DNA of 64,000 nucleotides. It comes from Nitrospira sp. MA-1 (lineage in GTDB: Bacteria > Nitrospirota > Nitrospiria > Nitrospirales > UBA8639). Of the stretch, positions 8,471 through 48,103 are shown in pieces (the stretch's first letter is position 1; every line of letters begins with the position of its first letter). The notes under the pieces were generated by a model. It searched no databases, had not been told where the DNA came from, and saw only the letters and a program-made list of their open reading frames with translations. A program made the translations under genes and the position numbers. The DNA lies in assembly GCA_032139905.1 (NCBI GenBank), contig JAQJDB010000006.1:1054001-1118000 (forward strand), in the 5' to 3' direction.

Positions 8471-8707
8471 ATTTCCGTATGATCCTCAAAAAAGTCTATT
8501 TCGAGTTCAGCGATTACTCCACTCCATATATCTTCTACGAAGATCCCGCATAGCCCGACTACTTCTTTTATTCCTTCCCTGCTATTGATGTAGCGACGAC
8601 CCGGTGGGTCGTCTATCCAAATCGCAGGTTACATTATTGCCCGTGTTTGGCATAATCCCCGGAGCGTGACCATCTCCTCATTTAAGAGTAGGGAAAAAGC
8701 CAAGCCT

Positions 8708-11700: not shown

Positions 11701-11725
11701 GGCCTCTCCATTTTCTTCACGCTGA
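8708..11725 (+). CDS. NACHT ATPase with C-terminal FGE-sulfatase (SUMF1-like) domain, copy A
   Basis: STAND-type NTPase of about 1005 residues. ATG 8708 (MDPVTISSLL) is preferred to GTG 8666 because the small gene at 11871 starts the same way (MPDPITLI). Order: alpha-helical N-terminal domain (1-100); glycine-rich linker GPGAIAAGAGGVAVG (about 110-135); NACHT domain with Walker A GGPGSGKS (235-242) and Walker B FDGVDE (337-342); helical region with FPHRTFQEYLAG; FGE-sulfatase domain from about 722 to the end. The C-terminus RVLRGGSW...IGFRVVAS (from residue 961) is of the type diversified by retroelements. NACHT-FGE proteins are candidates for conflict and defence sensors; that role is inferred. 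No upstream partner is visible. Confidence 0.9.
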   Translation: MDPVTISSLLAAAAGALGGEAVKDAYKVTKQAIKDLFGQDEDLLEALDDVEAKPQSRLKQETLQGQIEKHDFSQNRELLQHLAELERLLIQKELYVSTTYSATQSGSGGLAQGPGAIAAGAGGVAVGRDVHGSIYINPPAADPVQKAKHRYLERLINEFQILPLAAMGGGDELKGEVTLDQVYIELDTQTPLAEIISPAHSEQILRAQSPPGAAEREVYTALDIVTKTKKVLLLGGPGSGKSTFAKKLCAKMALAQLNNEKVLEGWESTTFPLFLTLRHVVQELGKVDLKSCPPEQQDHRLADVLFQAWCKQFGPDQKSATDSLEESLLSGNMLLVFDGVDEVPVEQRPRVYQAVMAILGRYPKIKHTIITCRSRSYTGPKMLPGFAPHHIAPFSEEKIGQFAQAWYTAQHELDEGRRKGLIQDLQANALGPLAELSPNPMLLTTMAILHRKGAGLPKERVKLYNLAVNNMLQRWEKDRDTEESRPISGVLKDERRLRKLMEHIAHFVHETEGWQESHKGMDRYILLQELEQSEVLGCLAGPFLNYVDQRAGLFMGEGGGKGGIPETYRFPHRTFQEYLAGCHMVNRHVNRAYRRRTSEGDYWYVAAQLGIEELWFNRRNEEGLLGLAYELCPEARPDSVAKWRGILWAGTIAVLLGVEPFEADGEHSRGGVKFLQILKKRLQQVMRESPLPAIERAEAGRHLAKLGDPRFREGAWWLPDEGLLGFIEIPAGSFQIGEKWKIINIDIPYTYYISRYPVTQAQFQAFVKDGGYQEEQFWPEAEAAGIWDAGKVKSQYDDEPRQQPEKFGDPFGLSNHPVVGVTWYEALAYCRWLTQKLREWHDTPEPLRTLLQAGGETGTPWSIMLPNEPEWEKAARGSHDDRTYPWGKHVDPNRANYRGTNIIGTNAVGCFPGGKSPYEVEELSGNVREWTRSVYEEESYTPDPIAWATREVLTAGVDKSRVLRGGSWDNDHYYVRCAYRLRLNSPCDWGNFIGFRVVASPFSSR
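11588..11725 (+). other. Variable-region-like 3' end of NACHT-FGE copy A
   Basis: Encodes RVLRGGSW, about 25 variable residues, then IGFRVVASP. Between the fixed ends, codons are dominated by NNC triplets (GAC, AAC, GAC, CAC, TAC, TAC, CTC, CTC, AAC, GGC), as expected if AAC codons of a template were mutated at adenines. The matching segment of copy B (15010-15144) has the same ends and different residues in between. The assignment to a diversity-generating retroelement is an inference, since no template or reverse transcriptase was found in the window. Confidence 0.5.
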
Positions 11726-11870: not shown

Positions 11871-12320
11871 ATGCCAGATCCAATCACCTTAATCGTGGAG
11901 GTGTTGGTCGCAGGGGCAAAATTGGTAGGGGAAGAAGTCGTCAGCCAAGCTGTGATAGATGCGTGGAACGGTCTTAAAAAACTCATCGGCTCGAAATATG
12001 AATCCAACCCGAACGTCGGAGCCTCTCTGCAAATCTTGGGGACCAAGCCCGATTCAACGGACATCCAAGAGGCGGTTGAGAAGGCCTTGAGAGAAGCTGG
12101 TGTCGATTACGATGAAGAGATCCGAGCCAAAACGAATGAGTTGAGGATCAGGCTCGAACAAGAGAATTTGATGCCTCGGATCGTTTACCAAGCAAAAGTG
12201 GAGGGGAGTGGATCCGTGGCGCAGGGTAAAGGTGCTATTGCGGCGGGTGCTGGTGGGATTGCTGTTGGCGGCAATGTTCATGGGAATGTGACAACTGGTG
12301 AGAAATCCGGGCAATCCTGA
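11871..12320 (+). CDS. Small adaptor-like protein related to the N-terminus of NACHT copy A
   Basis: A 149-residue protein starting MPDPITLIVEVLVAGAKLVGEEVV, similar in layout to the first 130 residues of the 8708 protein: an amphipathic helical head, a coiled middle, then a glycine/alanine-rich end GKGAIAAGAGGIAVGGNVHG. The start is well supported by GGGAGGAG 8-10 bases upstream. It ends 13 bp before the next NACHT gene, so it probably forms an operon with it and supplies the domain that copy A carries in cis. No catalytic motif is visible. A scaffold or effector-recruiting role is a guess. Confidence 0.75.
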   Translation: MPDPITLIVEVLVAGAKLVGEEVVSQAVIDAWNGLKKLIGSKYESNPNVGASLQILGTKPDSTDIQEAVEKALREAGVDYDEEIRAKTNELRIRLEQENLMPRIVYQAKVEGSGSVAQGKGAIAAGAGGIAVGGNVHGNVTTGEKSGQS

Positions 12321-12333
12321 ACCGTCATTCAAC

Positions 12334-15144
12334 ATGGATGATCTCACAAAAAAGTTAGCGCAACTTCGTCAGGCTCACGAGAGGGGAGTGTTGGATGCTG
12401 AGACCTATCAGGCTTCCGTGGCGGCATTGGAACAGCAAGGGAAACCGGCGGGTAATGCAGTGGTGCAAGGCAGCGGGAGTGTGGCGCAAGGGTCAGGAGC
12501 GACTGCTGCCGGTGCAAGAGGTGTGGCGGTGGGTGGCAACATTGTGGGCGATGTCTATATGGGTCCCCCTCCGACAGATCCCACCCAGGCGCTGAACATT
12601 TATTGCCGCGTTCTGATAGAGCAAGGACAATTTTTTTTGCTTCGGGGTCTGGATAAACAATCCAGCGATTCCACCGATAAGAAGCAACAGCCTCTCCAAC
12701 TGGATCATGTCTACGTCAATTTACATACCACCGCTCAACACGAGAGAGATCAGGATGATGAGACAGAGCGGAAACCTGTGACCGCACTTGAAGCGGTCCT
12801 GAAGCATCCTCAGGTGGTGAACCTGGGCGATCCAGGTTCTGGGAAGTCCACATTTGTGAATTATCTGGCTTTCTGTTTAGCCTCAGCCTGGCTTGAGCCC
12901 ACAGGCCATTGGATGGAGAAGTTGCCGGGGTGGGAGGATGTGAACCCGGGGTCTTGTATTCCAATTCCTGTCACGCTTCGGGAATTTGCGCAGTGGGACC
13001 CTCCCGATGTGGGGAAAGCTCACCTGTGGGAGTTTCTTGTATCTCGCTGGAATGCCAAAAATCTCGAATGTGTCGCCGCGCCATTACAGCAGTGCTTGGA
13101 TCAGGGAAATGTCATCGTGCTGTTGGACGGTCTGGATGAGACGGTAACGGAAGAGCAGTTAGCCTTGGTGAGTCGAGCCGTGAGAAGTTTTATGCAGCGG
13201 TATAGGAAGAGCCGAATGCTGGTGACCTGCCGAGTCTTGCCCTTTCAAGGGCTTCGGAGTGACTTTAGTGACTTTCAGGGTATTCCCGATTTTGAACTCG
13301 CCCCATTCACACCAAAACAAATCGATGCGTTCATCGAATCCTGGTATGCCAAGCTGTATCGCGCTCGACAAATCAAAACTCAGCAGGAGGTTGACGACCT
13401 CATAAAAGAGCTTAAAGAGGCCGTGTGCCGTCCTGATCTTCGAAAGTTGGCGCCCAATCCGCTTCTGCTCATGGTCATGGCGCTTGTCCATACGCACAAA
13501 GGGCGCCTTCCTAATGAGCGTGCGCTGCTTTACGAAAAGACTATTGAGATTTTGTTGTGGCGATGGGAACAGATGAAGGTCAAGGACAAGGCGCAAAAAG
13601 AACAGGAAGTAAGTGTGCTGCAGTTGTTACAGCAAGCCAAGCGAACCAATGTGGACCTTAAGCGGGTGTTATGGGAATTGGCCTTTACCGCCCATTGGAA
13701 AGGCCGTAGTGGATACGAGCGTATCGCAGATATCGGTGAAATGGATTTAATTCAAGCCTTGGCCCCGCTGCATCCCACACAGAGTTTGGATTGGGGAAGA
13801 AAAATGGTGGCGGCAATCAAGCTGCGGGCGGGCCTGTTAGTCGAACGGGTGCCGGGGCGATTTACCTTTCCTCACCGGACCTACCAAGAATACCTCGCAG
13901 GTGCGCATATTGCCGCACAGACCGACTTTTGCCGGCAAGCCGCGCAATTGGCTGAGGAATTTGCCGTGTGGCGTGAAGTCATTCTTTTAGCGGTTGGACG
14001 ACTCGTCCATTGGAGCGGAGATATTGAGAAACCTCTCGCGTTGATCGCGGAACTGTGTCCGGAACAGATCAAGGAGGGCTCGATTGTCGAATGGCCCAAG
14101 CAATGGTTGGCGGGAGATATTGTGAAGGAGATTGGCCTCAATCGTGTGAAGGACCGCAGCCTGGGCCGGGAACTGTTGCCACGTGTGCAAAATCGCCTAG
14201 TGAGCGTGATGAGGGACGGTCTCCTTCGTCAACGAACGAAAGCCTCCCAAACATTGGTCGATATCGGTGATCCCCGATTTCGAGCCGCTGGATGGTCACT
14301 TCCGGATGAATCTCTTTTAGGTTTTGTGAAAATTCCGGCTGGCCACTTTCAGATGGGCGAAAGATGGGCAAACAAAAAGATTGAAATTCCGTACGACTAT
14401 TATATCTCTCGCTATCCCGTCACGCAGGCCCAATTCCAAGCGTTTGTGGAGGATGGCGGGTATCAAGAAGAAGCATTGTGGCTGGAAGCCATAGCGGCGG
14501 GTATCTGGGAGGCAGGGAAAGTACAGGGACGAAATGGACCCAAAAATTATGGTGGCTTCTTTGATCTTCTCAATCATCCCGTAGTGGGTGTGACCTGGTA
14601 TGAAGCTCTGGCCTATTGCCGATGGCTCACGCAAAAGCTTCGAGCGTGGGATGACACGCCGGAGCCGGTGAAAACATTGCTAAGCACAGGAGGAGAGACT
14701 GGAAAGCCTTGGGCGATTGTTCTACCTAACGAACCAGAATGGGAGAAGGCTGCACGAGGCGAACAGGATGACCGAATGTACCCCTGGGGTAACAAGGCTG
14801 ATCCCAATAGAGCGAATTATCGTGAGACCTACCTCAACGCGACGACCGGGGTTGGCTGTTTCCCACAAGGAATCAGTCCTTATGGCCTCGAAGATATGAG
14901 CGGCAATGTGTGGGAATGGACAAGGAGTTTATTTATGATGGAGCCATACCCTTCTGATCAAAAAATATGGTCCACACGGGAAGATCTCACGGCCGAAAGA
15001 AATCAATCCCGTGTGCTGTGTGGCGGGTCGTGGAACAACAATGAACACATAGTGCACTGTGCCTACCGCAACTGGTACTTCCCGTGTCGCAGGTATGACT
15101 ACCTCGGGTTTCGAGTGGTGGCCTCTCCATGTTCTTCACGCTGA
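12334..15144 (+). CDS. NACHT ATPase with C-terminal FGE-sulfatase (SUMF1-like) domain, copy B
   Basis: A 936-residue paralogue of the 8708 protein. ATG 12334 lies 13 bp after the preceding stop; GTG 12298 is an overlapping alternative. It opens with a SHOCT-like helical hairpin (LTKKLAQLRQAHERGVLDAE), then the glycine-rich linker GSGATAAGARGVAVGGN, a NACHT domain with Walker A GDPGSGKS (165-172) and Walker B LDGLDE (264-269), a helical part with FPHRTYQEYLAG, and an FGE-sulfatase domain from about 662. The NACHT part differs strongly from copy A while the FGE part is nearly the same at DNA level. The C-terminal variable segment begins at residue 893. Function as a sensor is inferred. Confidence 0.9.
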   Translation: MDDLTKKLAQLRQAHERGVLDAETYQASVAALEQQGKPAGNAVVQGSGSVAQGSGATAAGARGVAVGGNIVGDVYMGPPPTDPTQALNIYCRVLIEQGQFFLLRGLDKQSSDSTDKKQQPLQLDHVYVNLHTTAQHERDQDDETERKPVTALEAVLKHPQVVNLGDPGSGKSTFVNYLAFCLASAWLEPTGHWMEKLPGWEDVNPGSCIPIPVTLREFAQWDPPDVGKAHLWEFLVSRWNAKNLECVAAPLQQCLDQGNVIVLLDGLDETVTEEQLALVSRAVRSFMQRYRKSRMLVTCRVLPFQGLRSDFSDFQGIPDFELAPFTPKQIDAFIESWYAKLYRARQIKTQQEVDDLIKELKEAVCRPDLRKLAPNPLLLMVMALVHTHKGRLPNERALLYEKTIEILLWRWEQMKVKDKAQKEQEVSVLQLLQQAKRTNVDLKRVLWELAFTAHWKGRSGYERIADIGEMDLIQALAPLHPTQSLDWGRKMVAAIKLRAGLLVERVPGRFTFPHRTYQEYLAGAHIAAQTDFCRQAAQLAEEFAVWREVILLAVGRLVHWSGDIEKPLALIAELCPEQIKEGSIVEWPKQWLAGDIVKEIGLNRVKDRSLGRELLPRVQNRLVSVMRDGLLRQRTKASQTLVDIGDPRFRAAGWSLPDESLLGFVKIPAGHFQMGERWANKKIEIPYDYYISRYPVTQAQFQAFVEDGGYQEEALWLEAIAAGIWEAGKVQGRNGPKNYGGFFDLLNHPVVGVTWYEALAYCRWLTQKLRAWDDTPEPVKTLLSTGGETGKPWAIVLPNEPEWEKAARGEQDDRMYPWGNKADPNRANYRETYLNATTGVGCFPQGISPYGLEDMSGNVWEWTRSLFMMEPYPSDQKIWSTREDLTAERNQSRVLCGGSWNNNEHIVHCAYRNWYFPCRRYDYLGFRVVASPCSSR
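15010..15144 (+). other. Variable-region-like 3' end of NACHT-FGE copy B
   Basis: Encodes RVLCGGSW, a variable core with AYRNWYFPCRRYDYLGF, then RVVASP. The core aligns with what a template of repeated AAC codons would give (AAC, TAC, TTC, TGT, CGC, TAT, GAC, TAC, CTC). A few codons (GAA, ATA, TGG) do not fit adenine-only mutation of AAC. The flanks match copy A almost base for base, and the match continues about 50 bp past the stop. Confidence 0.5.
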
Positions 15145-27159: not shown

Positions 27160-29742
27160 CTATTCCTCCGATGAGGTAGCTGGTTCTTCCCCCCAGATGC
27201 GGGCGAGGGTGGCTTGGATCTTTTGCTCGAAGCGTTCGATCAGTTGGCGGTTGGCGGCGACCAGTGCTTGCTCTGCTTCGATCTCGGCCACGATGGCTTG
27301 TTGTGTGGCGAAGGGTGGGAGGGGGATTTTGTATTCTTTAAAGAAGCCGTTGGAGAAACTTTGAACCGTAACGCCCGGCTTAATGCCTTCTGCGAGGATG
27401 GAAGCAGATTTTGTTTTGAGCACATAAAACAAAAAATCTGGGCTCATTGCCCTGTCTTTTGGTAGGAACGCGATCAAATCCTGATTGATGCACATAGGCC
27501 GCGAAAGGATGGCCACAGGGAATGAGTGTTTGAGTATGCCTGATCGCACCACGCAAACAACTGTTTTGGCAGGAAACAACTTCGTGGAACTTCCGGCTAT
27601 CGCCTTCTCCGAGATGTGGTCTGCGGTATCGACAATAACATCTGATTTCATGTCCTTCGGTGAGACCCACGGAATCTCACCTATCCAATAAATTGGTTCC
27701 TCCGTCGATGGGGTGCCACCACTTGAGGTTGAGAAGTGCTCACCAAGATTAACCATCGGCCAGTCGGGGTGGATGGGGATGTGGGGGCGGTAGTTGTCGA
27801 GGACGGCGCGGGCGCCGTCGATGACTTTCTGGTAGCCCTCGATCTCCGCCACGATCTCCTTCTGCACCTCCAGCGGCGGCAGGGGGATTTTAATTTGAGT
27901 GAGCGCGTTGCCGTTGAACTGTGGCTGTCCGCCGCCGGTCGTAAGGTTTCGCGCCTGTTCCCAATACTTTTCTGATTGAGCGAACGACCAGTAGAAATCA
28001 GGCAAAAGGCTATCCTGTGGAAATCTGAGGCGAATCAGGTAGGACGCGAAGACTGCCGGATATTCTTCGTCGAACAGCATCGTTTTGCCGAAGGTGGCAC
28101 CAGTTCTCGCAACGAGGAGGTCGCCTTTTTTTAACAGATACGGCTCGGAATCCTGAGTAAGCTTGATGAACTTGGGTTCGTCTTTCCTGATTCGCCCATC
28201 TGGAGCGATGTCAGTGATCCTCACAAACCGTGCATCACCTTTTTCCTCGGCGCTCGCCGTGAATCCGTATTCCGGTTTGCAGATGGTGCCGAGTTCCACC
28301 TGTGGCCACTTTTGATTCAAGACCCCCCTCTCTCGATACCGCTCCCCACTCAGGTTGTAGTCGCCGTTTTCGGCGATCTTTTCCTTCCCAACGATCAAGC
28401 CAAGGGTAGTTTGAAAGTTTTCAACCAGGCCTTGTTCCCGCAAGCGACGCAAGTATTCATTGAGTTCCACTAGGGCTTGTGGTAAGTCGTCTTTATCAAA
28501 GCGACGCCGCTGGGCGCCAAGCCCAAAGCCATCGTTCTCGATTTTGAAGAAGGCGATGGTGTTTGTCTTCTTTGCCAGGGACTTGTCGAGGATGAGGATC
28601 GAGGTCTTCACACCAGAGTAAGGATTGAAGACTCCTGCTGGAAGTGAGATGACGGCAACCAGGTATTCCTCGACCAGCATCTTGCGTAGTTGGGTATAGG
28701 CATTTTGGCTCTGGAAAATGATACCCTCGGGCACAATGATGCCAGCACGGCCAGTGGGCGTGAGGTGCTCCGCCATGTAGTCCACGAATAGCACTTCGCT
28801 TCGCTTGGATTGCACCGAAAAACGGTTGTGCGGCTTGATGCCTCCTTTTGGTGACATGAAGGGCGGGTTGGCGAGAATGACGTCGGCATACTCGTTCCAT
28901 CGGTCCTGGCTGGTGAGCGTGTCGTATTCGACGATGTGTGGGTCGGTGAAGCCGTGCAGGTAGAGATTCACCAGGGACAGGCGCACCATATCTGGTGAGA
29001 TGTCGTACCCCTTAAAGTTGGTGGCCAGGCGACCCTTTTCATCCGGGGTCAGCAGGTCGCCCTTGGCGGGGGGAATTTTGGAAGTATGGAGTGCTTCTTC
29101 CCCGCTTATCTTGCTCCCGTTCGGTTCGATACCTTCCGGTGAGCTGTTTGCTTTGAGGATGTGCTTGTAGGACGAGATGAGAAATCCAGCGGTGCCGCAG
29201 GCTGGATCGAGCACCGTCTCGGTCTTCTTCGGATCGAGGATGGCGACGATGAAGTCGATGATGTGCCTCGGCGTGCGGAACTGTCCGGCATCTCCCTGGG
29301 AGCCGAGGACAGAAAGCAAATACTCATAGGCGTCCCCTAAGCGCTCGGAGTGGTCGTAGGCGAACTCATCGATGATCTTAAGAAAGGCACGCAGGGTTTC
29401 CGGGTCACGATAGGGCAGGTAGGCGTTCTTGAAGATGTCGCGAAATAGAGTCGGAATGCCGGGGTTCTCCGGCATCTTGGCGATGGCCTCAGCGTAAAGG
29501 GTCAAGATTTCGTGCCCGCCTAGGCCGGAGCGCATGAGTTTGGCCCAACCGTAGCGCGCAAACTCTCTGGCGAAGAACTTGCGCTTTCCCCCGAACTCTT
29601 CGCTCTCGGCATCCATGTCGTCCATGAATTTATAGATGAGCGCGATGGTGATCTGCTCGACCTGGCTTTTGGGGTCTGGCACTTTGCCCACGAGAATGTC
29701 GCGGGCGGTATCGATTCGGCGTTTGGTGTCGGTGTCTAACAT
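27160..29742 (-). CDS. hsdM: Type I restriction-modification methyltransferase fused to specificity subunit (HsdM-HsdS)
   Basis: An 860-residue fusion. Residues 1-465 are HsdM: helical N-terminus, AdoMet motif DPACGTAGF (179-187) and catalytic NPPF (about 292-295). Residues about 475-860 are HsdS: target-recognition domain 1 from WPQVELGTI, a first conserved helix after IPLPPLEVQKEIVAEIEGYQ, domain 2 from WPMVNLGEHF, and a second helix after IPLPPFATQQAIVAEIEAEQ. It methylates adenine within a bipartite site. The specificity cannot be read. HsdM and HsdS are usually separate chains. Its ATG shares one base with the KilA-N gene stop (TAATG). Confidence 0.94.
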   Translation of the reverse strand: MLDTDTKRRIDTARDILVGKVPDPKSQVEQITIALIYKFMDDMDAESEEFGGKRKFFAREFARYGWAKLMRSGLGGHEILTLYAEAIAKMPENPGIPTLFRDIFKNAYLPYRDPETLRAFLKIIDEFAYDHSERLGDAYEYLLSVLGSQGDAGQFRTPRHIIDFIVAILDPKKTETVLDPACGTAGFLISSYKHILKANSSPEGIEPNGSKISGEEALHTSKIPPAKGDLLTPDEKGRLATNFKGYDISPDMVRLSLVNLYLHGFTDPHIVEYDTLTSQDRWNEYADVILANPPFMSPKGGIKPHNRFSVQSKRSEVLFVDYMAEHLTPTGRAGIIVPEGIIFQSQNAYTQLRKMLVEEYLVAVISLPAGVFNPYSGVKTSILILDKSLAKKTNTIAFFKIENDGFGLGAQRRRFDKDDLPQALVELNEYLRRLREQGLVENFQTTLGLIVGKEKIAENGDYNLSGERYRERGVLNQKWPQVELGTICKPEYGFTASAEEKGDARFVRITDIAPDGRIRKDEPKFIKLTQDSEPYLLKKGDLLVARTGATFGKTMLFDEEYPAVFASYLIRLRFPQDSLLPDFYWSFAQSEKYWEQARNLTTGGGQPQFNGNALTQIKIPLPPLEVQKEIVAEIEGYQKVIDGARAVLDNYRPHIPIHPDWPMVNLGEHFSTSSGGTPSTEEPIYWIGEIPWVSPKDMKSDVIVDTADHISEKAIAGSSTKLFPAKTVVCVVRSGILKHSFPVAILSRPMCINQDLIAFLPKDRAMSPDFLFYVLKTKSASILAEGIKPGVTVQSFSNGFFKEYKIPLPPFATQQAIVAEIEAEQALVAANRQLIERFEQKIQATLARIWGEEPATSSEE

Positions 29743-30563
29743 TATTTCATATTTTTCATTGCGGGACTGGAGAGCAATGACCCCATTTGGGTGATCGCAA
29801 TCTGGTTTAATTTGACGAGGCGCTCGGATTGGGGAAGCCTTTGGCGGATAAGGACTGCGTTGAGGCTTTCCAGATTGGTCAGAACGACCAACTGCTCCAA
29901 TGTGGCCTGGTCACGAATATTGCCCTGGGTATTCGAATGCCGTGTGCGCCATTCCTTTGCTGTTTTCCCGAATAGTGCGACGTTGAGCAGATCGGCCTCA
30001 TTGGCATAGACAAGAGATGTCTGCTTACTCGTGACGATGGCCGGGAGCAGGGTTTCCTTGATGGCATCCGTATGGATGCGATAGTTGATCTTCGAGAGGG
30101 TCCGTTGCAGATTCCACTCCAGCTTGAGCCGATTGCTCTCCTCTTCCTTGAGCCTCTGGAACTCCTTGATAAGGTAGATCTTGAATTCCGGACTGATCCA
30201 CATGCCGAATTCAAAGGCAATGTCCTTGTGTGCAAAGGTCCCACCGTATCTTCCGGCCGTGGCTCGAAGGCCGACGGCGTTGGTCTTGGCGACCCATTCC
30301 TTGACACTGATTTTGTAGCTGTTCAGACCTGCTTGGCTTTTAATTATGGCGAATTCGCCATAATTAAAGTCGGGGTTGTGGACGCGTTCCCAGATACCGA
30401 GAAACTCAACGGTGTTGCGATTTCTTAGCCAGTCCGAGATGAAAAATTCGCCGTCTTTCGCCTTCAACATATCCGTCAAGGAAATATAGTCCGCATCCTT
30501 GCGCGAAAGGACAGTGATGGTCGTTCCGAGGACATCAATGCTTGTTTTCTTGGATTTGCTCAT
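29742..30563 (-). CDS. KilA-N domain protein inside the restriction operon
   Basis: A 273-residue protein. The N-terminal KilA-N-type DNA-binding domain (about residues 10-130) shows DYISLTDMLKAKDGEFFISD, RNRNTVEFLGIWE and YGGTFAHKDIAFEFGMWISP. The C-terminal half is helical. KilA-N proteins come from phages and large viruses and recur between hsdR and hsdM in some type I systems. Its role there is not established. It starts 14 bp after hsdR and overlaps the hsdM start by one base, so translation is probably coupled. Confidence 0.9.
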   Translation of the reverse strand: MSKSKKTSIDVLGTTITVLSRKDADYISLTDMLKAKDGEFFISDWLRNRNTVEFLGIWERVHNPDFNYGEFAIIKSQAGLNSYKISVKEWVAKTNAVGLRATAGRYGGTFAHKDIAFEFGMWISPEFKIYLIKEFQRLKEEESNRLKLEWNLQRTLSKINYRIHTDAIKETLLPAIVTSKQTSLVYANEADLLNVALFGKTAKEWRTRHSNTQGNIRDQATLEQLVVLTNLESLNAVLIRQRLPQSERLVKLNQIAITQMGSLLSSPAMKNMK

Positions 30564-30577
30564 TTTCCTATTTTCTT

Positions 30578-33121
30578 TCAGGCGACGAACTGGGTCAAGG
30601 AGACGTAATCCTTGATGTACTCGGGAATGAGGGCGCGATATTTCTCCGGCACCGCCTTATAGTCGCGTGTGGAGAAGACCGCATTGGTGGCCAGGTCCGT
30701 GAAATGTCGATTTTCAATAATGGAGCGAATCTGGTTGCTACTGACATAGGCTTTGAAATAGTTTTTGATGGCTGAAATGGCTTCGGCTTTGTCCGGCTTG
30801 TGGTCGGCGACGAACTTGGCGAATTCCTCTTCCAAAAGTTCGTCCTTGGATTTGAACCGTGGGATGAGGCCAAATATTTTTTCCAGAATCTCGCGCAGCG
30901 TGAGGCGGCGATCCACTGCGGCAGCTTTGCGCAGCTTGTCGAGGTTGTAGTATTCCTCGGGTTTATCGAAGACCTCCCGGTTGACGTAGTCGATGACTCT
31001 ATCCCATTGTCCAGCCTCGACGGCTTGCGCAATGTTTTCGTTCTCGCGCATAGAGTCTCCAAACCTCTCAAAGAACATGCGGTCGATTCTCATGCCGTAT
31101 TCATTGATTTTCTCTTCTTTAATGGTGGAGAGGATGTCTTGCCCCAGGTGCTCGTAGGTGCCTCCCACCACGACCGGGTCAGTTCCCTCTCCTTCACCAT
31201 CACTTCTTCCACGAGTAGGTTTGGGCAGCTTTATGACTTCATCGTAGTTGTATTCCTCCTCAAAGTATTCGCAATTAGCGAAGAAGTCGAAGAGCTTATA
31301 CGACGTCTTATTTGGTTCCTTAACTCCTTCTTTGATGGTGTCGTCGAAAAGCTGCTCCAGGAAGTTATGCTTACGGGTGCCACGCCCTTTAATTTGGATG
31401 AAATCCGTGGGAGAAAAGATAGGCCGAAACAGGCCGAGGTTGAGAATGTCCGGGCAGTCATATCCGGTTGTCATCATGCCGACTGTCACGCAGACTCTGG
31501 CTTTGCTGGTTTTGTAGCTGGGTAGAACGTTGGCCGAACCGAGCAAGTTATTGTTGGTGAAGTTGATCGTGAACTGTTGGGCATCCGGTATCTGCGACGT
31601 CACCTGGACGGCGAAGTCCGACTGATACATGCCCGGAAACATGCGGTCGGCGATCTCATTGAAAATCTGCGCCAGTTTGGCCGCGTGATTCTGACTGACA
31701 GCAAAAATGATGGACTTGCCGATTTCACCGCTGACCGGATCGCGAAGGGCATTATCTAGGAAGGTCTTGCAAAAGAGTTGGTTGGTGGACTTGGAAAAGA
31801 ACTGTTTCTCGAACTCACGTTGCTTAAAGGCTTCCTGCTGATCCTCCCCTGTATCGTCGTTCATGGAAACCACGAATCCCTCTTTGGAAAGCAGCTCGGT
31901 TGTGACGACCGTCCGCGCATCCACCACGATGGGATTGATCAGGAAACCCTCCTTCACCCCATCTAGCAAGGAGTAGCGAAAGGTGGGCTGGCTATTTTCG
32001 CACCCGAAGGTCCGGTAGGTATCCAGCAGCAAACGTCGCTCTGCCTCACGCGGATCCCGCGTGGTTGGGCTGCTCTGGTCGAACCGCTTCAGGTAGTCAC
32101 GGGGTGTGGCGGTCAGGCCAAGTTTGTAGCCAATGAAATAGTCGAACACGGCGCGGGCATTCCCGCCAATCGAGCGGTGCGCTTCGTCGGAGATCACTAA
32201 ATCGAAGTCGGTTGGAGAGAAGAGCCTCTGATATTTGTTGTTGAACAGCAAGGACTGCACCGTGGTGACGACCACTTCGGCGCGTCGCCAGTCGTCGCGG
32301 CTTTCTTTGTAGATATCCGTTTTGAAGTCTGAGGAGAGTAGCCCCACAAAGGCCTTTTTCGCCTGGTCCTCCAGTTCGAGTCTATCGACGAGAAAGAGCA
32401 CGCGATGGGCATTGCCGGACCGGAGAAACAGCTTAATGACGGCGGCGGCAATGAGCGTTTTGCCTGTGCCCGTGGCCATCTCGAAAAGGAAGCGATCTTT
32501 TCCGTCTTTGACAGCCCGTTGTAATGCATGCACGGCCTTCAACTGATAAGGGCGTAGGAATCGCAGTTTGTTGGTTTGTATGTAACCAGTTCGTTCGGGT
32601 TCGTTTTTCCAGGCCGCTTCGGATGCATAGGTCGGGCGTTGGGTGAGGACAATGTAGTCGTCCCCAACTTGCTCATCGATCAGGCGCTGTGGGTTAGGCG
32701 TGATTTTTTGATAGCCAACCACCGAGCCCGGGGTCGGGAACGAGGTGATGAGGTAGGGGTTGCCTCTTTCAAGATCCCAGAAGTAATGCAGGTTTCCATT
32801 CGAGAGGATGATGAAGCGGCAATTCTGAGAACGGGCATATGTGCGAGCCTGCTCTTTGCCAACCAACGGGTTTTTATCTTCGGACTTGGCCTCAAGAACA
32901 ATGAGCGGATAATTTCTGGCGTCCAGGAGCAGAAAGTCAATGTAGCCTTTGGTCGTTTTTTCGAAATTGTTACCTAACGCGTCGAGATCGGTCGTTTTGA
33001 TCGTGACGCTGGGTTCAAGGCGGATGTTGGCTGGGGCATTGCCATCGGCGAAGAAGCGCCAGCCTGCGCCGTCAAGCAGCCTGTTGATTTTAATCCTGGC
33101 TGTGGCTTCCTTGGCGGACAT
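30578..33121 (-). CDS. hsdR: Type I restriction endonuclease subunit R
   Basis: An 847-residue motor and nuclease subunit that translocates and cuts unmethylated DNA with HsdM/HsdS. ATG 33121 (MSAKEATARIKINRLL) is chosen over GTG 33160 because CAGGA lies upstream and the protein then starts like its family. The N-terminal nuclease has GYIDFLLLDARNYPLIVLEAK (D...E-x-K). The helicase has Walker A ATGTGKT, DEAH-type SDEAHR and the motif VI-like IQIKGRGTRKH. A C-terminal helical part binds the methylase. First gene of a four-gene operon. Length is typical for the smaller HsdR class. Confidence 0.94.
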   Translation of the reverse strand: MSAKEATARIKINRLLDGAGWRFFADGNAPANIRLEPSVTIKTTDLDALGNNFEKTTKGYIDFLLLDARNYPLIVLEAKSEDKNPLVGKEQARTYARSQNCRFIILSNGNLHYFWDLERGNPYLITSFPTPGSVVGYQKITPNPQRLIDEQVGDDYIVLTQRPTYASEAAWKNEPERTGYIQTNKLRFLRPYQLKAVHALQRAVKDGKDRFLFEMATGTGKTLIAAAVIKLFLRSGNAHRVLFLVDRLELEDQAKKAFVGLLSSDFKTDIYKESRDDWRRAEVVVTTVQSLLFNNKYQRLFSPTDFDLVISDEAHRSIGGNARAVFDYFIGYKLGLTATPRDYLKRFDQSSPTTRDPREAERRLLLDTYRTFGCENSQPTFRYSLLDGVKEGFLINPIVVDARTVVTTELLSKEGFVVSMNDDTGEDQQEAFKQREFEKQFFSKSTNQLFCKTFLDNALRDPVSGEIGKSIIFAVSQNHAAKLAQIFNEIADRMFPGMYQSDFAVQVTSQIPDAQQFTINFTNNNLLGSANVLPSYKTSKARVCVTVGMMTTGYDCPDILNLGLFRPIFSPTDFIQIKGRGTRKHNFLEQLFDDTIKEGVKEPNKTSYKLFDFFANCEYFEEEYNYDEVIKLPKPTRGRSDGEGEGTDPVVVGGTYEHLGQDILSTIKEEKINEYGMRIDRMFFERFGDSMRENENIAQAVEAGQWDRVIDYVNREVFDKPEEYYNLDKLRKAAAVDRRLTLREILEKIFGLIPRFKSKDELLEEEFAKFVADHKPDKAEAISAIKNYFKAYVSSNQIRSIIENRHFTDLATNAVFSTRDYKAVPEKYRALIPEYIKDYVSLTQFVA

Positions 33122-33320
33122 GATGATTCCTGGCTCAGTGGAGCCGATCAAGCGTGTCACTTAACGTTGATACTTGGAATGGGGGAATTGTAGGCGGCAT
33201 GTGCAACGGAAATTAGACGTAACCCCTTACGATGTCAAGCATTTTTCTTATTCCAGAACTTGATTTAAAGAAGGAGGAAACTCGTAGTCATTCTGCAACG
33301 GGAAGCAGGGTTTGAGCTTG

Positions 33321-37387: not shown

Positions 37388-38623
37388 CTATTCTATGTCG
37401 GTGAATGAGGCCGCAAATGTGGGGAGGGTGTGCCAGCGTTCATTTCGCTCCTGAATATGCGCTTCCATCCGGCGTACTAAGTTCACGACCTCATTGTCTT
37501 GGTTCAGTGCCCCGACGATGGTGACAGGCGTTCCAACTTGTGTCCGACCAAATACGTCATCCATGGTTGAATTCTTCAAGGCAATACAGCCGCTGGTGGT
37601 ATTTTCGTTATTAGGTCCTTCGCCATGGATTTCAATCAGACTGCCGATGGATCGATCCGCTGGAACCAGGCCATTGGCTTGGGCATCCTGGAAGCGCTTT
37701 TGATGGGCAACGGTCGGGTAATCTAATAATAAGGCCTTATAATAATTGGTCCCCGATCCGTCTTTTTTGTGTATCACATGAAACTGGCCTTCCGGCGTGG
37801 CGCCGTCTCCCTCGTAGAGCTTATCTGCCAATCCTGAAAACCCCACGCGTGCCGGATAGTCGGCAATGATCCGGCCCCGTTGGTAGACGAGTAGGCGACG
37901 GGGAGCTTTGAGCACAATGACCGCTGTGCCGGCTGTCCCGGTTGATCGTTGAATGGTGTCCGTGACCCATTGTTCCCAGAGGGTAATCTGGGCATCATTT
38001 CTGTAGCGATTCATCTGAGCCAGTACGTGGGGTTCCACGCGGCGAAGATGCTCAAGGGCCTTTTCTCCGGCTGCCCGTGCCTGCCGGTATTGTCCCTGCT
38101 CTAATCGCAAGATACTTTCTTGTAACAGTCCCTCTGCCAGGGAAAGCGCAAACATGTCGTCTTCCAGATCGAACAGGTGGGACAGTTCACGTAATCGTGT
38201 GAGATGAGCTTGTTCGGGTTGAAGGAGTTCCTTGACCTCCGTGTGAAGCGCTGACACTTTCTGGCGCGAAGCTTGGATCAGCAGAGAGCCTTCTTCCACC
38301 AGTTGTTGATACTGCTGGTTGAAGGTCGCTTCATCGCCGTTTGTCCACCAGTAATTGGCCTCCCTCCGCCATTGGGAACGGAGTTCAATCACCTGGTGAT
38401 GAAATTGTTGGTAACGATCAGGAAATAAGGCCTCTGCGCCGTTGGCCCGGGCTTGTCGGTCCAGATCCTCGATCAGAGGGGGAAAGGTCTCGGGCTTCCC
38501 TGTGTGCCCCCACCAGGCATACGCCAAGGCTGGAAGCAGGACCAGTATGAACGTGATGATCCAGCGCCGACGCCAGGCCGACTGAAAACAGGTGGGCGGA
38601 GTGATCAATGTGTTCTCTCTCAT
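37388..38623 (-). CDS. L,D-transpeptidase (YkuD) with helical stalk, cassette 1
   Basis: A 411-residue protein. One membrane anchor (about residues 19-38, RWIITFILVLLPALAYAWW), then about 180 residues of helical stalk, then a YkuD domain from about residue 240 (TAVIVLKAPRRLLVYQRGR). Catalytic motif IEIHGEGP...TTSGCIAL. Its ATG shares one base with the stop of the DUF4398 gene (TGATG), so the two are coupled. The gene at 46265 is a paralogue with the same layout and the same partner. Substrate and acceptor are unknown. Confidence 0.9.
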   Translation of the reverse strand: MRENTLITPPTCFQSAWRRRWIITFILVLLPALAYAWWGHTGKPETFPPLIEDLDRQARANGAEALFPDRYQQFHHQVIELRSQWRREANYWWTNGDEATFNQQYQQLVEEGSLLIQASRQKVSALHTEVKELLQPEQAHLTRLRELSHLFDLEDDMFALSLAEGLLQESILRLEQGQYRQARAAGEKALEHLRRVEPHVLAQMNRYRNDAQITLWEQWVTDTIQRSTGTAGTAVIVLKAPRRLLVYQRGRIIADYPARVGFSGLADKLYEGDGATPEGQFHVIHKKDGSGTNYYKALLLDYPTVAHQKRFQDAQANGLVPADRSIGSLIEIHGEGPNNENTTSGCIALKNSTMDDVFGRTQVGTPVTIVGALNQDNEVVNLVRRMEAHIQERNERWHTLPTFAASFTDIE

Positions 38624-39267
38624 CAGGCCTGTTGCTTTGCGGGAAGCCGTTTGAGAGAGATAATCCGGGCTTGAAGTCGGGTGGAAAAAGATTCTACGGA
38701 ATGGGAGGTGATCATCACGTCGATGAATTGTTCCTGGGCCATAATGGAGTCGATTTCGGCGAGGAGCCTTTCGGTATCCTGAAAGGCTTGGAGAAGTTGG
38801 TCCAGCTTCCCGTGATCAGATGCGGGAGTGGACACTTCTGTCAGAAGGGCACGAACGTCTTGAAGATGCTGTTTGGCAAAGGCGAGAGCCACCTCGGCAT
38901 TCGCTTTACTCTCTCTTTTATTGGCGATGGCTTCCATTTTGGCTTGGGTCGCATCGTCGAAAACTTCTGACAATATCGTGATCGCAGGATCATAATTTCG
39001 AAAGAGCGGTATCCGATCTCCCTGTTGATCCAGATTTTGCTTGACCTGTTGATACCCCGTTTCTGCTTCAGTGAATCTCTCAATCGCGTACTGTTCGGCT
39101 TCTGACATTCTCGCGTCTTCAAGGGCTTGCGTGGCTGCGTTCCATTGGGAGAGAGGTGGTTCTGCGCAACCGGCTATGAGCAGCCAGAGCAGAAAAAGTG
39201 CCTGGGTGTAGTGGAGAAGGTTAACCTGTCGAGGGCTGCGTTGACTGGTGGATTTCCATACAGCCAT
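38623..39267 (-). CDS. DUF4398-like lipoprotein, cassette 1
   Basis: A lipoprotein of about 214 residues with lipobox LIAGC after a hydrophobic stretch (ALFLLWLLIAG). The mature part is almost entirely helical and coiled-coil-like (EAETGYQQVKQNLDQQG, ANAEVALAFAKQHLQDVRAL), as in DUF4398 proteins of the outer membrane. ATG 39267 is preferred to 39315 because it gives a shorter positively charged signal region. Neither has a good ribosome site. It is paired with the L,D-transpeptidase that follows. Confidence 0.8.
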   Translation of the reverse strand: MAVWKSTSQRSPRQVNLLHYTQALFLLWLLIAGCAEPPLSQWNAATQALEDARMSEAEQYAIERFTEAETGYQQVKQNLDQQGDRIPLFRNYDPAITILSEVFDDATQAKMEAIANKRESKANAEVALAFAKQHLQDVRALLTEVSTPASDHGKLDQLLQAFQDTERLLAEIDSIMAQEQFIDVMITSHSVESFSTRLQARIISLKRLPAKQQA

Positions 39268-39341
39268 GTTGAGTTGAAGTCTTTCTGTCACGATTATTGG
39301 AGCATTCTTTGACATCGGGAAGGTCGTTCTTCATGAAGAGG

Positions 39342-43669: not shown

Positions 43670-45637
43670 TTAGAAAATCAGCGTCACTGAGAACTGTAAG
43701 ATGCGCCCGGTATCCAGCTTCTCTTTATCCTGAACCGTGAGTGACCATTTTCCCTTTGGATTTTTGCCTGCTAATGCCAGGAGGTCCGGTGTCGTGGTGA
43801 CATCGTAGGTAGTGTGGATATTGTCTGTCCCGCCTCCAATGCGATTGTGGAGCAGAATGGGCGAGGCCCCTGTTGAATTGGGCGGGACCACCTTTATGAT
43901 TAAATCACCGATATAGGAATGTTCAATGTCCACTCCGATTTTGACGGAGGTGGGTACTGTGGTCTCGGCCACTTGAACAGAGAGTCGTGAAGTTTGAAGA
44001 TCGCGAATGGGAATGACGGCGGTGGAGGCATGAACGGTGGTGGGAGTCGGAATGGCTGGTGCAGCCAACTCAACAGCGCGTTTGGCATTGATCCGTCCAT
44101 ATCCATATAAGGTGCTATGGCCGTTGGTGTCATATTTTCCCCCACTTGGATCGATTTGATCACACGAGCGCTTGAGGAGATCTTTAACCTCATCCCAGCG
44201 CAGTGAGGGGTTGCGAGCGAGAATGAGGGCGGCCACTCCTGCGACACCGGGACAGGCGCTTGATGTGCCGCCAAAATCGTTGACATAATTGCCTGCCGCA
44301 TCGCCTCGACTCACTTGTCCGGGATTGTATCCTGCTGACGCCGAGCGATCGGTGGTCCAAATTCCCGGGATGGGGAGAACGGTATCGTTGCTGGGAAAGG
44401 TACACCAAATGGCCTTGCCGAAATCGCTATAGGCACTCTTTTTCCCTTTGGCGTGGCAGGCGGCCACGCCAATCACTTTTTCATAGCTGGCGTATCCATC
44501 GTTATCGACACTTTCGTTCCCGTTTCCGGCGGCCCAGGTGATCACACAGCCTTTTCCGTTGCGTCCATTGGCGACGGCCCAATCTATGGCAAGTCGGGTG
44601 GAATCCGGCAGGGGAACCAGGGTGTGATGAAGGGGATCGCGGGGGTCCCACCAGGCGCCATCTTCAGGCCCCCAGCTACAGGAAATGACATCAGCACCAT
44701 GTTGCGCGGCCCAGATAAATGCATCAGCCTCGGCCTGTGAGCCTAACGGGGAGACATAGCGAATGGCCATCAATCGGGCTTTGGGAGCGACCCCGGCGGC
44801 ACCATGAAAACCGTTGCCGGTGGCGACGCCTGCACAGGCGGTTCCATGATTATCCCGGCTACCGGGTCGAGGATCGTCAGTGGCGCGTGTCACATCGCGA
44901 GGAGCGAGAAGTTTTCCAGAACTGGCAAACTCTTCGTGATCAAGATCCATCCCGTCATCGATGATCGCGACAGTGGTATTTTCTCCTTCACTGAGTGCCC
45001 AGGCGGCCTCCACGTTGGCATGGGCATCATAAACCGTTCCATCAATCGTGGTCTTTTTCAGGTGCCATTGTTGTGGAAATGCGGTGCGCCATCCCATTTG
45101 TCTGACAAGTTCAGGGTGACAGAGTTCCACATATTTATGCCGCAAAAGACTTTCGGCAATGGCAAATACCTCTTGCCCTGTGCCCTCCGGCGCTTCGACA
45201 AAGAAGGTATTGCGAGCATATTCCAGTACCCGTTTGATTCCGAGTCCGGAGGCTTTCAAGATTTTCCGACAAGTGGATTCGGCCAGGTCATCGTCAAATT
45301 TAACAAAAAGATTTTCGGTGTACAGCACCGGTTTTTTTGATTGAGGATCGACCAGGACCCGACCGGCAAATTGCACGTCTTTTACCGATTTAATAGTGGT
45401 GCGGATTGCTCCTCGCGCACTCGCGCGTCGAACGTTTTGGGGATAGCGAAAGATTTCCACGCCGGCATGTTGAAACCGGTGGACCGGCTCAAGATCGTCC
45501 AGGGCTTGCCGGGCTCTAAGCGACTGCGCTGCAGCTTCCAACGGTCGACGACTCTGAGTTCGCACGACGACGAGCTCTTCATCGGTTTTCAGCCTGAACG
45601 ATTTCCCGTTTTGTCCTCCATAACGAAATGACAGCAT
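43670..45637 (-). CDS. Subtilisin-like serine protease (S8) with P domain, no signal peptide
   Basis: A 655-residue kexin-like subtilase. The start MLSFRYGGQNGKSFRL has AAGGAG upstream and no hydrophobic signal. Prodomain about 105-190 (LFVKFDDDLAESTCRKIL). Catalytic triad: Asp227 in VAIIDDGMD, His264 in DNHGTACAG, Ser459 in GGTSSACPG. The C-terminal P/Homo-B-type domain covers about 540-655 (VEHSYIGDL-like region, then NPKGKWSLTVQDKE). It probably acts in the cytoplasm or leaves by a non-Sec route. It is divergent from a gene resembling its own prodomain (45708-46244), only 70 bp away. Confidence 0.92.
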   Translation of the reverse strand: MLSFRYGGQNGKSFRLKTDEELVVVRTQSRRPLEAAAQSLRARQALDDLEPVHRFQHAGVEIFRYPQNVRRASARGAIRTTIKSVKDVQFAGRVLVDPQSKKPVLYTENLFVKFDDDLAESTCRKILKASGLGIKRVLEYARNTFFVEAPEGTGQEVFAIAESLLRHKYVELCHPELVRQMGWRTAFPQQWHLKKTTIDGTVYDAHANVEAAWALSEGENTTVAIIDDGMDLDHEEFASSGKLLAPRDVTRATDDPRPGSRDNHGTACAGVATGNGFHGAAGVAPKARLMAIRYVSPLGSQAEADAFIWAAQHGADVISCSWGPEDGAWWDPRDPLHHTLVPLPDSTRLAIDWAVANGRNGKGCVITWAAGNGNESVDNDGYASYEKVIGVAACHAKGKKSAYSDFGKAIWCTFPSNDTVLPIPGIWTTDRSASAGYNPGQVSRGDAAGNYVNDFGGTSSACPGVAGVAALILARNPSLRWDEVKDLLKRSCDQIDPSGGKYDTNGHSTLYGYGRINAKRAVELAAPAIPTPTTVHASTAVIPIRDLQTSRLSVQVAETTVPTSVKIGVDIEHSYIGDLIIKVVPPNSTGASPILLHNRIGGGTDNIHTTYDVTTTPDLLALAGKNPKGKWSLTVQDKEKLDTGRILQFSVTLIF

Positions 45638-45707
45638 GGGTGGTCTCCTTCTGTGTGAATTGGCAATGATCCTTGGATTTGCTCCGCATTCCTTCGTAGA
45701 ATGACGA

Positions 45708-46244
45708 ATGCCTTTGAACGATCCGTTTTCCCACTTTCCTCTAAGGATGACCGTGGTAGCCCAAGCGGTATCCCGTGTCTATGTTCGTGAGTTCGACTGC
45801 TTTGCGGTTCATGGGCCGGTCCCTCCCGCTTTGATTACGTCGGTGTTGTACTCTTTTGATGATCCGGTTATCAACGTGTGCCGGGGTGAGGTCTCTGACC
45901 TCTCGACGTTTCCTGCCGACCTCACGCTGACACCGGTCTATCGTCTTGAGCCCAATGGTCCGCAGGGAGTGCCGTCTGGCAAGGTGTTTATTCGTTTCCA
46001 GTCCCACGTCCCCGTCGAGGGCCGGCGGCAAGAATTAGAGGCGTGCGGGTTCTTAATTCGTGAATCACTTTCCTATGCGCCTCATGCCGCATGGCTTGAG
46101 AGTTGTGATGGGAATATTGCCACGGCGCTTCATGGTATGGCAAAGCTGCGTGACCTCAACCACATTGAGCTGGTTGAACCGCAGATGTTGATGCGGCGGA
46201 TGCAGCGGTCCCGAGATGATCCCCCACCGAATCCACCACCTTAA
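45708..46244 (+). CDS. Stand-alone subtilase-prodomain-like protein
   Basis: A 178-residue protein, unknown by name. Residues about 88-165 parallel the prodomain of the divergent protease: KVFIRFQSHVPVEGRRQELE against NLFVKFDDDLAESTCRKILK, then RESLSYAPHAAWLES against RVLEYARNTFFVEA, then IELVEPQMLMRRM against VELCHPELVRQM. The first 85 residues are a separate part with several prolines. It ends Pro-rich (DDPPPNPPP). Free prodomains can inhibit or help fold subtilases, so this could be an inhibitor or chaperone of the neighbour. That role is inferred. Confidence 0.7.
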   Translation: MPLNDPFSHFPLRMTVVAQAVSRVYVREFDCFAVHGPVPPALITSVLYSFDDPVINVCRGEVSDLSTFPADLTLTPVYRLEPNGPQGVPSGKVFIRFQSHVPVEGRRQELEACGFLIRESLSYAPHAAWLESCDGNIATALHGMAKLRDLNHIELVEPQMLMRRMQRSRDDPPPNPPP

Positions 46245-46264: not shown

Positions 46265-47473
46265 TTACCGGTTTCGGACCGTCAGGGAATCCGTAGGGAG
46301 AGCAATGCGTTGGCGGGTATGGTCGGTGATGTTGCCGAGAGCTTTCATCACCCAATTGTCTGATTGCAGGGCTCCGACGACGGTCACCGGAGTCCCTTCT
46401 TTAGCCAGATGAAAGACGGCATCCATGTCTGTATTGGATAAGGCAATGCAGCCATTCGTCGTACTGTTGCCATTGGGTTGTTGTCCGTGAATTTCTATGA
46501 GACCTCCGATGCCGCGTCGCGCCGTCAGGCCGCCCTTGAGCTTGGCTTTCTGGAAGCGTCGACGATGCTCGTTGGTTGGATAATTGAGTAAGAGGGCTTT
46601 ATGGAATTTGGTGGATCCCGGTCCTTTCTTCTGCTGGATGTGAAACTGCCCCTCCGGTGTTGCGCCATCGCCTTCCTGTAACTTGTCCTGAAGTCCTGAA
46701 AACCCGAGATCAATGTAAAAACGGCGCAGCGGTTTTCCATTACGATAGAGCACGAGTTGGCGGGAGGCTTTGATAACCACGATGGCCGTGCCGCCTGTCC
46801 TTGAAGACCAATCCACTGTGTTAGTGGCCCAAAGGTTCCACTTGGCAAGTTGTGAGAGGGTTCCATACCGTTTCATTTGGGCCATGACATGAGCCTCAAC
46901 GGGTGCAAGAGAATCTCTTGCCTGTCCAAGAAGAATATGAGCGTGATTGTCAGGGTCTTGCCCGAGTCGAGAGGCGGCCTGGTTCAGTAACCCTTCTGTC
47001 ACGGAGAGTGCGCGCAGATTTCGTCGAACATCAAATATCCCGGTCAATGCCCGTAAACGGGTTACTTGCCGACGTTCAGATTCTAATGCGGTTGTCAGTT
47101 GCTGGTGTCGAGTGGATTTTTGGTGCTTGGAGACTTCAAGAAGGGCCGAGCCTTCTTGCAGCAGGTTTTGGTAGGTTGCCTGAAGCGTATGGGTGTCGGC
47201 GGTCGGCCACCAGCGCGCTTGTTCTCTTCGCCATTGCATCCGGAGATCGATGATGGCTTGATGAAATGCGCGGTATCGTTCCAGGGAATAAGCTTCCGCG
47301 CCATGGCTCCACACCTGTTGGTCGAGCAATTCAAGGTGAGGTGGGAAGATTTGGGGAAGGCGATCTGCCTTCCACCAGCCCACAAACAGAAAAGAAAACA
47401 TGATGAGGGCTCCAGCCGCCAGCCAAACTGCCGGTTGCTTGGCTGGTTGTCGGCCGGAGCCCCACCATCGCAT
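46265..47473 (-). CDS. L,D-transpeptidase (YkuD) with helical stalk, cassette 2
   Basis: A 402-residue paralogue of the 37388-38623 protein with the same order: membrane anchor (about residues 14-31, VWLAAGALIMFSFLFVGWW), helical stalk beginning LPQIFPPHLELLDQQVW, and a YkuD domain from about 230 (TAIVVIKASRQLVLYRNGK). Catalytic motif IEIHGQQP...TTNGCIAL. It starts 3 bp after its DUF4398 partner. Two such cassettes in 12 kb indicate duplication. Substrate is unknown. Confidence 0.9.
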   Translation of the reverse strand: MRWWGSGRQPAKQPAVWLAAGALIMFSFLFVGWWKADRLPQIFPPHLELLDQQVWSHGAEAYSLERYRAFHQAIIDLRMQWRREQARWWPTADTHTLQATYQNLLQEGSALLEVSKHQKSTRHQQLTTALESERRQVTRLRALTGIFDVRRNLRALSVTEGLLNQAASRLGQDPDNHAHILLGQARDSLAPVEAHVMAQMKRYGTLSQLAKWNLWATNTVDWSSRTGGTAIVVIKASRQLVLYRNGKPLRRFYIDLGFSGLQDKLQEGDGATPEGQFHIQQKKGPGSTKFHKALLLNYPTNEHRRRFQKAKLKGGLTARRGIGGLIEIHGQQPNGNSTTNGCIALSNTDMDAVFHLAKEGTPVTVVGALQSDNWVMKALGNITDHTRQRIALPTDSLTVRNR

Positions 47474-47476
47474 GTG

Positions 47477-48094
47477 TTATGCCTTCTTGTGTTTTCCGGT
47501 CTTCTGAATAGCCTGTGCGACCTGTTCAGTGACGCGGGAGGCTAAGGCTTGAACGGATTCGGCTTTAGCCTTTACGCCAATATAGTCTTCCGTGGCCATA
47601 ATGGCGTCAATTTCACCCAATGTGGTTTCTGCTGCTTGCAGGTCTCCCCGTAAGGCTTGCAGGTCGGCCTGGGTTCCCTTGCCCGCTGGCGCTTGGGCCA
47701 ACTGATTTTTGGCTTCTTCTAATGAGGTTTTGGCTAGGACCACGGCCCCTTCGGCACCGGTTTTCGCCAATTGCTTGCTGGCGATGGATTCGGTTTTGGC
47801 TTTTTCCGCATCCGCTACGACCTTGACCAAAATGGCATTTGCCACTTCATAGTTGCGTGTCAGCATAAAGGCATCGTCCTGCACTGCGATTTCTTCTTGC
47901 GCTTTTTGATATTCGTCCTCAGCAACACGCAAGGATTCAGGAGCATATTCCGCCGCACCGGCTTGCTTGGCAGCCTGAAGAGCTTGCAATGCCGAGTCAG
48001 TCCCCTGGATGGGTTTTTCGGCACAGGCCACGAGCATGATGCCGAATAACACTGCCAGAGCCGCCGTTTTAAATGATTGAATCATCATTCCCAT
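47477..48094 (-). CDS. DUF4398-like lipoprotein, cassette 2
   Basis: A lipoprotein of about 205 residues: signal FKTAALAVLFGIMLVAC with the cysteine of LVAC as lipid site, then an Ala/Glu/Lys-rich helical part (AEDEYQKAQEEIAVQDDAF, AVVLAKTSLEEAKNQLA), as in DUF4398 proteins. AAGGAGG lies upstream. ATG 48094 is 12 bases from it and TTG 48103 is 3 bases from it, so the start is not certain. Operon with the L,D-transpeptidase. Confidence 0.85.
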   Translation of the reverse strand: MGMMIQSFKTAALAVLFGIMLVACAEKPIQGTDSALQALQAAKQAGAAEYAPESLRVAEDEYQKAQEEIAVQDDAFMLTRNYEVANAILVKVVADAEKAKTESIASKQLAKTGAEGAVVLAKTSLEEAKNQLAQAPAGKGTQADLQALRGDLQAAETTLGEIDAIMATEDYIGVKAKAESVQALASRVTEQVAQAIQKTGKHKKA

Positions 48095-48103
48095 GTTTGT
48101 CAA

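Follow-up and report, generated by a model that had tools for sequence, protein, structure and literature searches.

The 64,000-nucleotide stretch of the Nitrospira sp. MA-1 genome analysed here (the window; contig JAQJDB010000006.1, positions 1,054,001 to 1,118,000, within a 4.76-Mb genome) contains a divergent gene pair encoding a kexin-like subtilase of the PrcA type and a small protein that, by profile comparison, is clearly a homologue of the prodomain of this cognate protease. The small protein is predicted to be a dedicated trans inhibitor of the divergently encoded protease, presenting Arg167 as a product-like residue and perhaps also helping the enzyme to fold, a reading to which we assign a probability of roughly 0.7. 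It is carried by homology, the predicted fold, co-occurrence of the two genes, a conserved Arg/Lys residue and selection on the small gene.

Both open reading frames are where an earlier reading of the window from its letters alone (hereafter the sequence-only reading) had placed them, and 70 bp lie between their start codons. That reading had matched the small protein to the protease prodomain in three blocks. All three hold up and share a common register, with the alignment extending past them to the C terminus, where R167 of the small protein falls opposite R184 of the protease without a gap. Evidence from the single pair is borderline, with BLASTP aligning protease residues 110–181 to small-protein residues 93–165 at 26% identity and a pairwise E of 8e-5, but only an E of 0.31 in a whole-genome search. 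Family profiles succeed where the single pair stays modest, and thus settle the homology, with hhalign comparison of 27 small proteins and 27 prodomains giving a probability of 95.3 and an E of 2.3e-8 over 87 gap-free columns (small protein 83–169 against protease 100–186), and strands and helices being predicted in matching order along the whole length. In other whole genomes the next matches of the small-family profile were protease prodomains (E 1.3e-7, 1.2e-6, and 2.1e-7), and the profile also picked up prodomains in most of the protease loci to which it was applied as six-frame translations. In the genome of the window it did not reach the protease prodomain at E ≤ 1, and neither the small family nor the prodomain family, used as a profile against PDB sequences, returned anything relevant. 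The small protein belongs to no Pfam, NCBIfam, or PADLOC family, with no Pfam or NCBIfam model matched above chance. PF05922 (Inhibitor_I9) had no match at E ≤ 1 in the genome and none among the 27 family members, and PF22148 (Fervidolysin_NPro-like) weakly matched four of the 27 (E 0.096).

The AlphaFold model of the small protein has a predicted local distance difference test score of 86.6, and VIA-align comparison of residues 87–167 gave the PC1/3 prodomain bound to furin as the best PDB match (Z 8.7), with the Tk-subtilisin propeptide (Z 8.6) and the subtilisin BPN' prosegment (Z 8.3) also matching. The PC1/3 prodomain likewise stood on top for the protease prodomain (VIA-align Z 9.9 and 9.6). 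This fold is common, with an RNA recognition motif (RRM) protein reaching a VIA-align Z of 7.7, and the match therefore backs a relation to prodomains without proving it alone. Foldseek gave the compact matches to 3wqb_B and 9fid a probability of 1.00, and the tandem-RRM proteins that came top in a plain search, with their two RRM domains spread across the model at a root-mean-square deviation of ~12 Å, were rejected. The structural check suggested with the sequence-only reading, a match to subtilase propeptides, is thus borne out, and the description of the small protein as a free-standing copy of the prodomain agrees with profile comparison, fold, and the conserved junction residue.

That residue, position 184 of the protease, is Arg or Lys in 55 of 56 homologues, though positions 181–183 vary, which makes Arg184 the presumed P1 residue of prodomain cleavage and indirectly suggests that the window protease cuts after Arg. 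The equivalent position 167 of the small protein is Arg or Lys in all 59 homologues that reach it, this column being among only two in the small family that are more than 95% basic. The protein ends exactly at this column in 23 of the 59 and within the following three residues in a further 25, with more than three residues following in the remaining 11, which include the small protein of the window with its 11 residues beyond Arg167. The C-terminal strand EPQMLxxRxxR, presumed to face the active site, is among the best-conserved parts of the small family. A product-like inhibitor of a kexin-like protease with Arg specificity would be expected to show this C-terminal pattern, and the dN/dS (ratio of nonsynonymous to synonymous substitution rates) of 0.26–0.43 indicates purifying selection on the small gene.

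The protease matches PF00082 (Peptidase_S8) at residues 218–514 (4e-42) and the proprotein-convertase P domain PF01483 at residues 564–652 (8e-12), and carries the motifs IIDDG (225), NHGTACAG (263), AAGNGN (369), and GGTSSACPG (456), with kexin and furin its closest PDB relatives by sequence. As the sole PF00082 match in the genome, it is the only subtilase found there. Its S8 and P domains, length of ~660 residues, and conserved N-terminal prodomain place it among PrcA-type kexin-like proteases, and it shares ~60% identity with Nostoc proteases of 661–662 residues, which are likewise divergently paired with members of the small family. We take these Nostoc proteases to be PrcA on the basis of architecture, size, and genus. 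A search for a σ70 promoter consensus in the 70-bp intergenic region found none; this spacing recurs in several relatives of the same genus, and in cyanobacteria reaches up to several hundred bp. Table 1 lists the features of the pair.

Table 1. Positions in the window of the protease gene, the small gene, and their parts.
Feature	Position	Strand	Description
Protease gene	43670..45637	-	655 aa; PrcA-type kexin-like S8 subtilase with C-terminal P domain
Prodomain of protease	45086..45637	-	residues 1-184; N-terminal subdomain ~1-100, propeptide-fold subdomain ~103-184
Arg184 codon	45086..45088	-	putative P1 residue of prodomain cleavage
Intergenic region	45638..45707		70 bp between divergent start codons; read from sequence
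Free-standing prodomain-like protein	45708..46244	+	178 aa; predicted trans-acting inhibitor
Propeptide-fold subdomain of small protein	45963..46208	+	residues 86-167; gap-free alignment to protease 103-184; VIA-align Z 8.3-8.7 over 87-167
Arg167 codon	46206..46208	+	putative P1-like residue

Searching ~85,000 species with only the small family as query returned 60 loci, distributed across Cyanobacteriota (38), Nitrospirota (10), Chloroflexota (4), Actinomycetota (3), and Pseudomonadota (2), with one locus each in NC10 (Methylomirabilota), Thermodesulfobacteriota, and a metagenome-assembled genome labelled Bacteroidia (75% identity), the last probably misassigned. A PrcA-like protease lies divergently upstream in 56 of the 60, within ~0.9 kb at all but one (L076), and the orientation is divergent at every one of the 56 loci with both genes. 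Three of the others (L050, L053, and L054) are cut at a contig end, and in an Anaerolineales genome (L106:8001-8237) a degenerate remnant of the small gene stands as an orphan, with no PrcA-like protease found in the 16-kb locus. The recurrence of the divergent pair in several phyla confirms the co-occurrence expected by the sequence-only reading and suggests a widespread dedicated protease inhibitor. At L076:2939-7989, in a Nostoc, ~5 kb with a predicted STAND/NB-ARC-like gene separates the two genes.

Whole-genome surveys gave a similar association, with both genes present in 13 relatives, the protease only in six (scored at E < 1e-60), the small gene only in none, and neither in 79, and with corresponding counts of six, one, none, and 111 in genomes of the Nostoc family. 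In the latter survey, PrcA was counted as full-length orthologues at at least 78%, leaving out a partial 60% match in one genome (G140) and more distant homologues at 36–42%. In one genome (G016) they fall on separate, broken contigs. Fisher values of 5e-12 for the relatives and 2e-9 for the Nostoc family are inflated by relatedness. A search of the protease-only genomes with the family profile found no diverged partner. Because proteases exist without a partner, the trans copy is optional, contrary to an antitoxin role. The S8 proteases in plasmid records (Pantoea and Leisingera) are more distant, and none has a neighbour annotated as a protein of the small-family kind. In two relatives (L041 and L042, in G071 and G073) the pair lies beside proteins with an eCIS_core (DUF4157) domain. 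At L040:4505-8929 (G034), where the small gene is absent, a trypsin and a serpin come after the PrcA-like protease, an arrangement that may represent another route to inhibition.

In a tree of 82 columns, the small proteins and the prodomains split at one branch with full support in the Shimodaira–Hasegawa-like approximate likelihood ratio test, and the small protein and the catalytic domain diverge in parallel (r 0.96 over 52 pairs and 0.73 over 21 diverse pairs). This pattern points to one old duplication followed by inheritance or transfer as a unit. A recent duplication in this lineage is rejected on the single fully supported branch of this 82-column tree.

From these observations we infer the Arg specificity of the window protease, binding, inhibition, and a trigger. 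The two prodomain copies would have separated in one ancient duplication, with the small protein docking on the catalytic domain in the manner of the cleaved prodomain, and Arg167, the equivalent of prodomain Arg184, filling the S1 pocket much as a cleavage product would. Expression from a separate, divergent gene would allow the mature enzyme to be held down after removal of the cis prodomain, with release by a trigger for which calcium, inhibitor turnover, and the expression ratio are candidates; the small protein may also assist folding. The prediction of an inhibitor made in the sequence-only reading is well supported by the homology, the conserved P1-like Arg/Lys, and two tested precedents, and its suggestion of regulated proteolysis is plausible. 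Several points nevertheless weigh against this mechanism. The protease already carries a prodomain in cis, and seven proteases across both surveys (6/19 relatives and 1/7 Nostoc-family genomes) have no partner. Within the genus, the nonsynonymous rate (dN) of the small gene is ~3–5 times that of its protease partner, and the extra N-terminal subdomain of the small protein (residues 1–85) has no assigned role. Finally, the parallel divergence of the two proteins is also expected from common descent and is no proof of interaction.

Whilst the small protein could act mainly as an external folding chaperone, as does ORF2 of Aeromonas sobria, with inhibition a transient by-product, we regard this as rather unlikely. 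The small protein shares with ORF2 both its fold (3wqb_B, Z 6.8 over residues 12–168) and a C-terminal basic residue, the ORF_2_N model PF18492 weakly matches seven of 27 protease prodomains (best E 0.0034), and maturation of the A. sobria protease, ASP, requires ORF2 (PMC5638518). However, ASP lacks a prodomain of its own, whereas the window protease keeps one that is complete and well conserved, and related proteases occur without the small gene. Less probable still is a role as substrate, adaptor, or localisation factor, in which the small protein would dock through its prodomain fold without inhibiting the enzyme. The N-terminal half of the small protein has no identified function, and the residues that follow the Arg in 11 of the 59 homologues could make the site cleavable, but the 23 homologues that end at the Arg offer nothing to cleave, and the strand presumed to face the active site is strongly conserved.

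The sequence-only reading had also raised a self-killing module. Such a module would resemble a toxin–antitoxin system, with the protease as toxin and the small protein as antitoxin. The genes are adjacent, the small protein probably binds the enzyme, and the protease has no evident signal peptide; however, the genes are divergent rather than in one operon, PADLOC gives only a generic subtilase model, and the protease has an inhibitory prodomain of its own and persists without the small gene in the seven genomes noted above. The small gene is thus no obligatory antitoxin, and a self-killing module is very improbable.

Elsewhere in the window, a two-gene cassette of a YkuD L,D-transpeptidase (45% identity between copies) and a small lipoprotein-like gene occurs twice, flanking the protease pair on either side (37388-39315 and 46265-48103). 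Two adjoining NACHT NTPases of the conflict-system kind, each fused to an FGE-sulfatase domain, lie at 8666-11725 and 12298-15144. A type I restriction-like cluster at 27160-33160, judged by eye from its translations, comprises a fused methylase/specificity gene, a KilA-N-like gene, and a helicase/restriction subunit.

PrcA was reportedly cloned from Anabaena by Maldener et al. in 1991, and its role and control remain, to our knowledge, unclear. A 178-residue member of the small family in one Nostoc-family genome (G209) occupies exactly the place of All1380, and All1380 should by synteny be the small protein. PrcA, a calcium-dependent protease, is Alr1381 in PCC 7120 (PMC3610870), and All1380, listed with 'no similarity' and without function, is contiguous with and divergent from Alr1381, with both proteins detected in the Anabaena exoproteome, where lysis is not excluded (PMC4390845). 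Because both were detected there, the argument of the sequence-only reading from a missing signal peptide to an internal protease is weakly informative; its premise is consistent with the N terminus of the window protease, in which no hydrophobic stretch was seen, no dedicated signal-peptide predictor having been applied. We lean towards a broader view in which PrcA-type proteases of several phyla form an ancient pair with the small family and in which these arginine-specific enzymes are controlled in two layers, by a prodomain in cis and by a separate copy that acts in trans through a C-terminal or near-C-terminal Arg. If so, All1380 would regulate the calcium-dependent protease of Anabaena, a role so far overlooked, and the conserved neighbour gene for a likely dedicated inhibitor offers a direct handle on PrcA. 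Free-standing propeptide inhibitors are already known. For the small family, and for the way its members pair with PrcA-type proteases, no published account was found in the open-access literature, nor was a published PrcA inhibitor, although subscription papers could include one.

Among known systems, the subtilisin and convertase propeptides and Inhibitor_I9 differ from the small protein in its extra N-terminal subdomain of ~85 residues and its lack of a Pfam Inhibitor_I9 match. The ASP/ORF2 pair of A. sobria resembles the window pair in comprising a kexin-like bacterial protease and a neighbouring propeptide-like gene whose product ends in a basic residue and shares the fold of the small protein (3wqb_B; Pfam ORF_2_N family), with the C-terminal Lys of ORF2 lying at the catalytic centre of the propeptide-less ASP and a half-maximal inhibitory concentration of 84 nM (PMC5638518). 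In contrast to the window pair, ASP is secreted and propeptide-deficient, whereas the window protease has a prodomain-like fold at residues 1–184, and orf2 shares an operon with the protease gene, downstream of it, whereas the small gene is divergent. The Plasmodium inhibitor SUB1-ProM, with which the stand-alone propeptide mimics TgMIC5 and POIA1 are grouped, is potent and is encoded beside its subtilase, which retains a propeptide of its own (PMC6993865). It resembles the window pair in arrangement, with a separate propeptide-like gene next to a protease that has not lost its propeptide, but is eukaryotic and has a signal peptide. The bacterial kexin-like enzyme described here joins a cis prodomain with a separate trans copy, and, should the small protein prove inhibitory, the pair would be a bacterial counterpart of those eukaryotic stand-alone propeptide inhibitors whose protease keeps its own prodomain.
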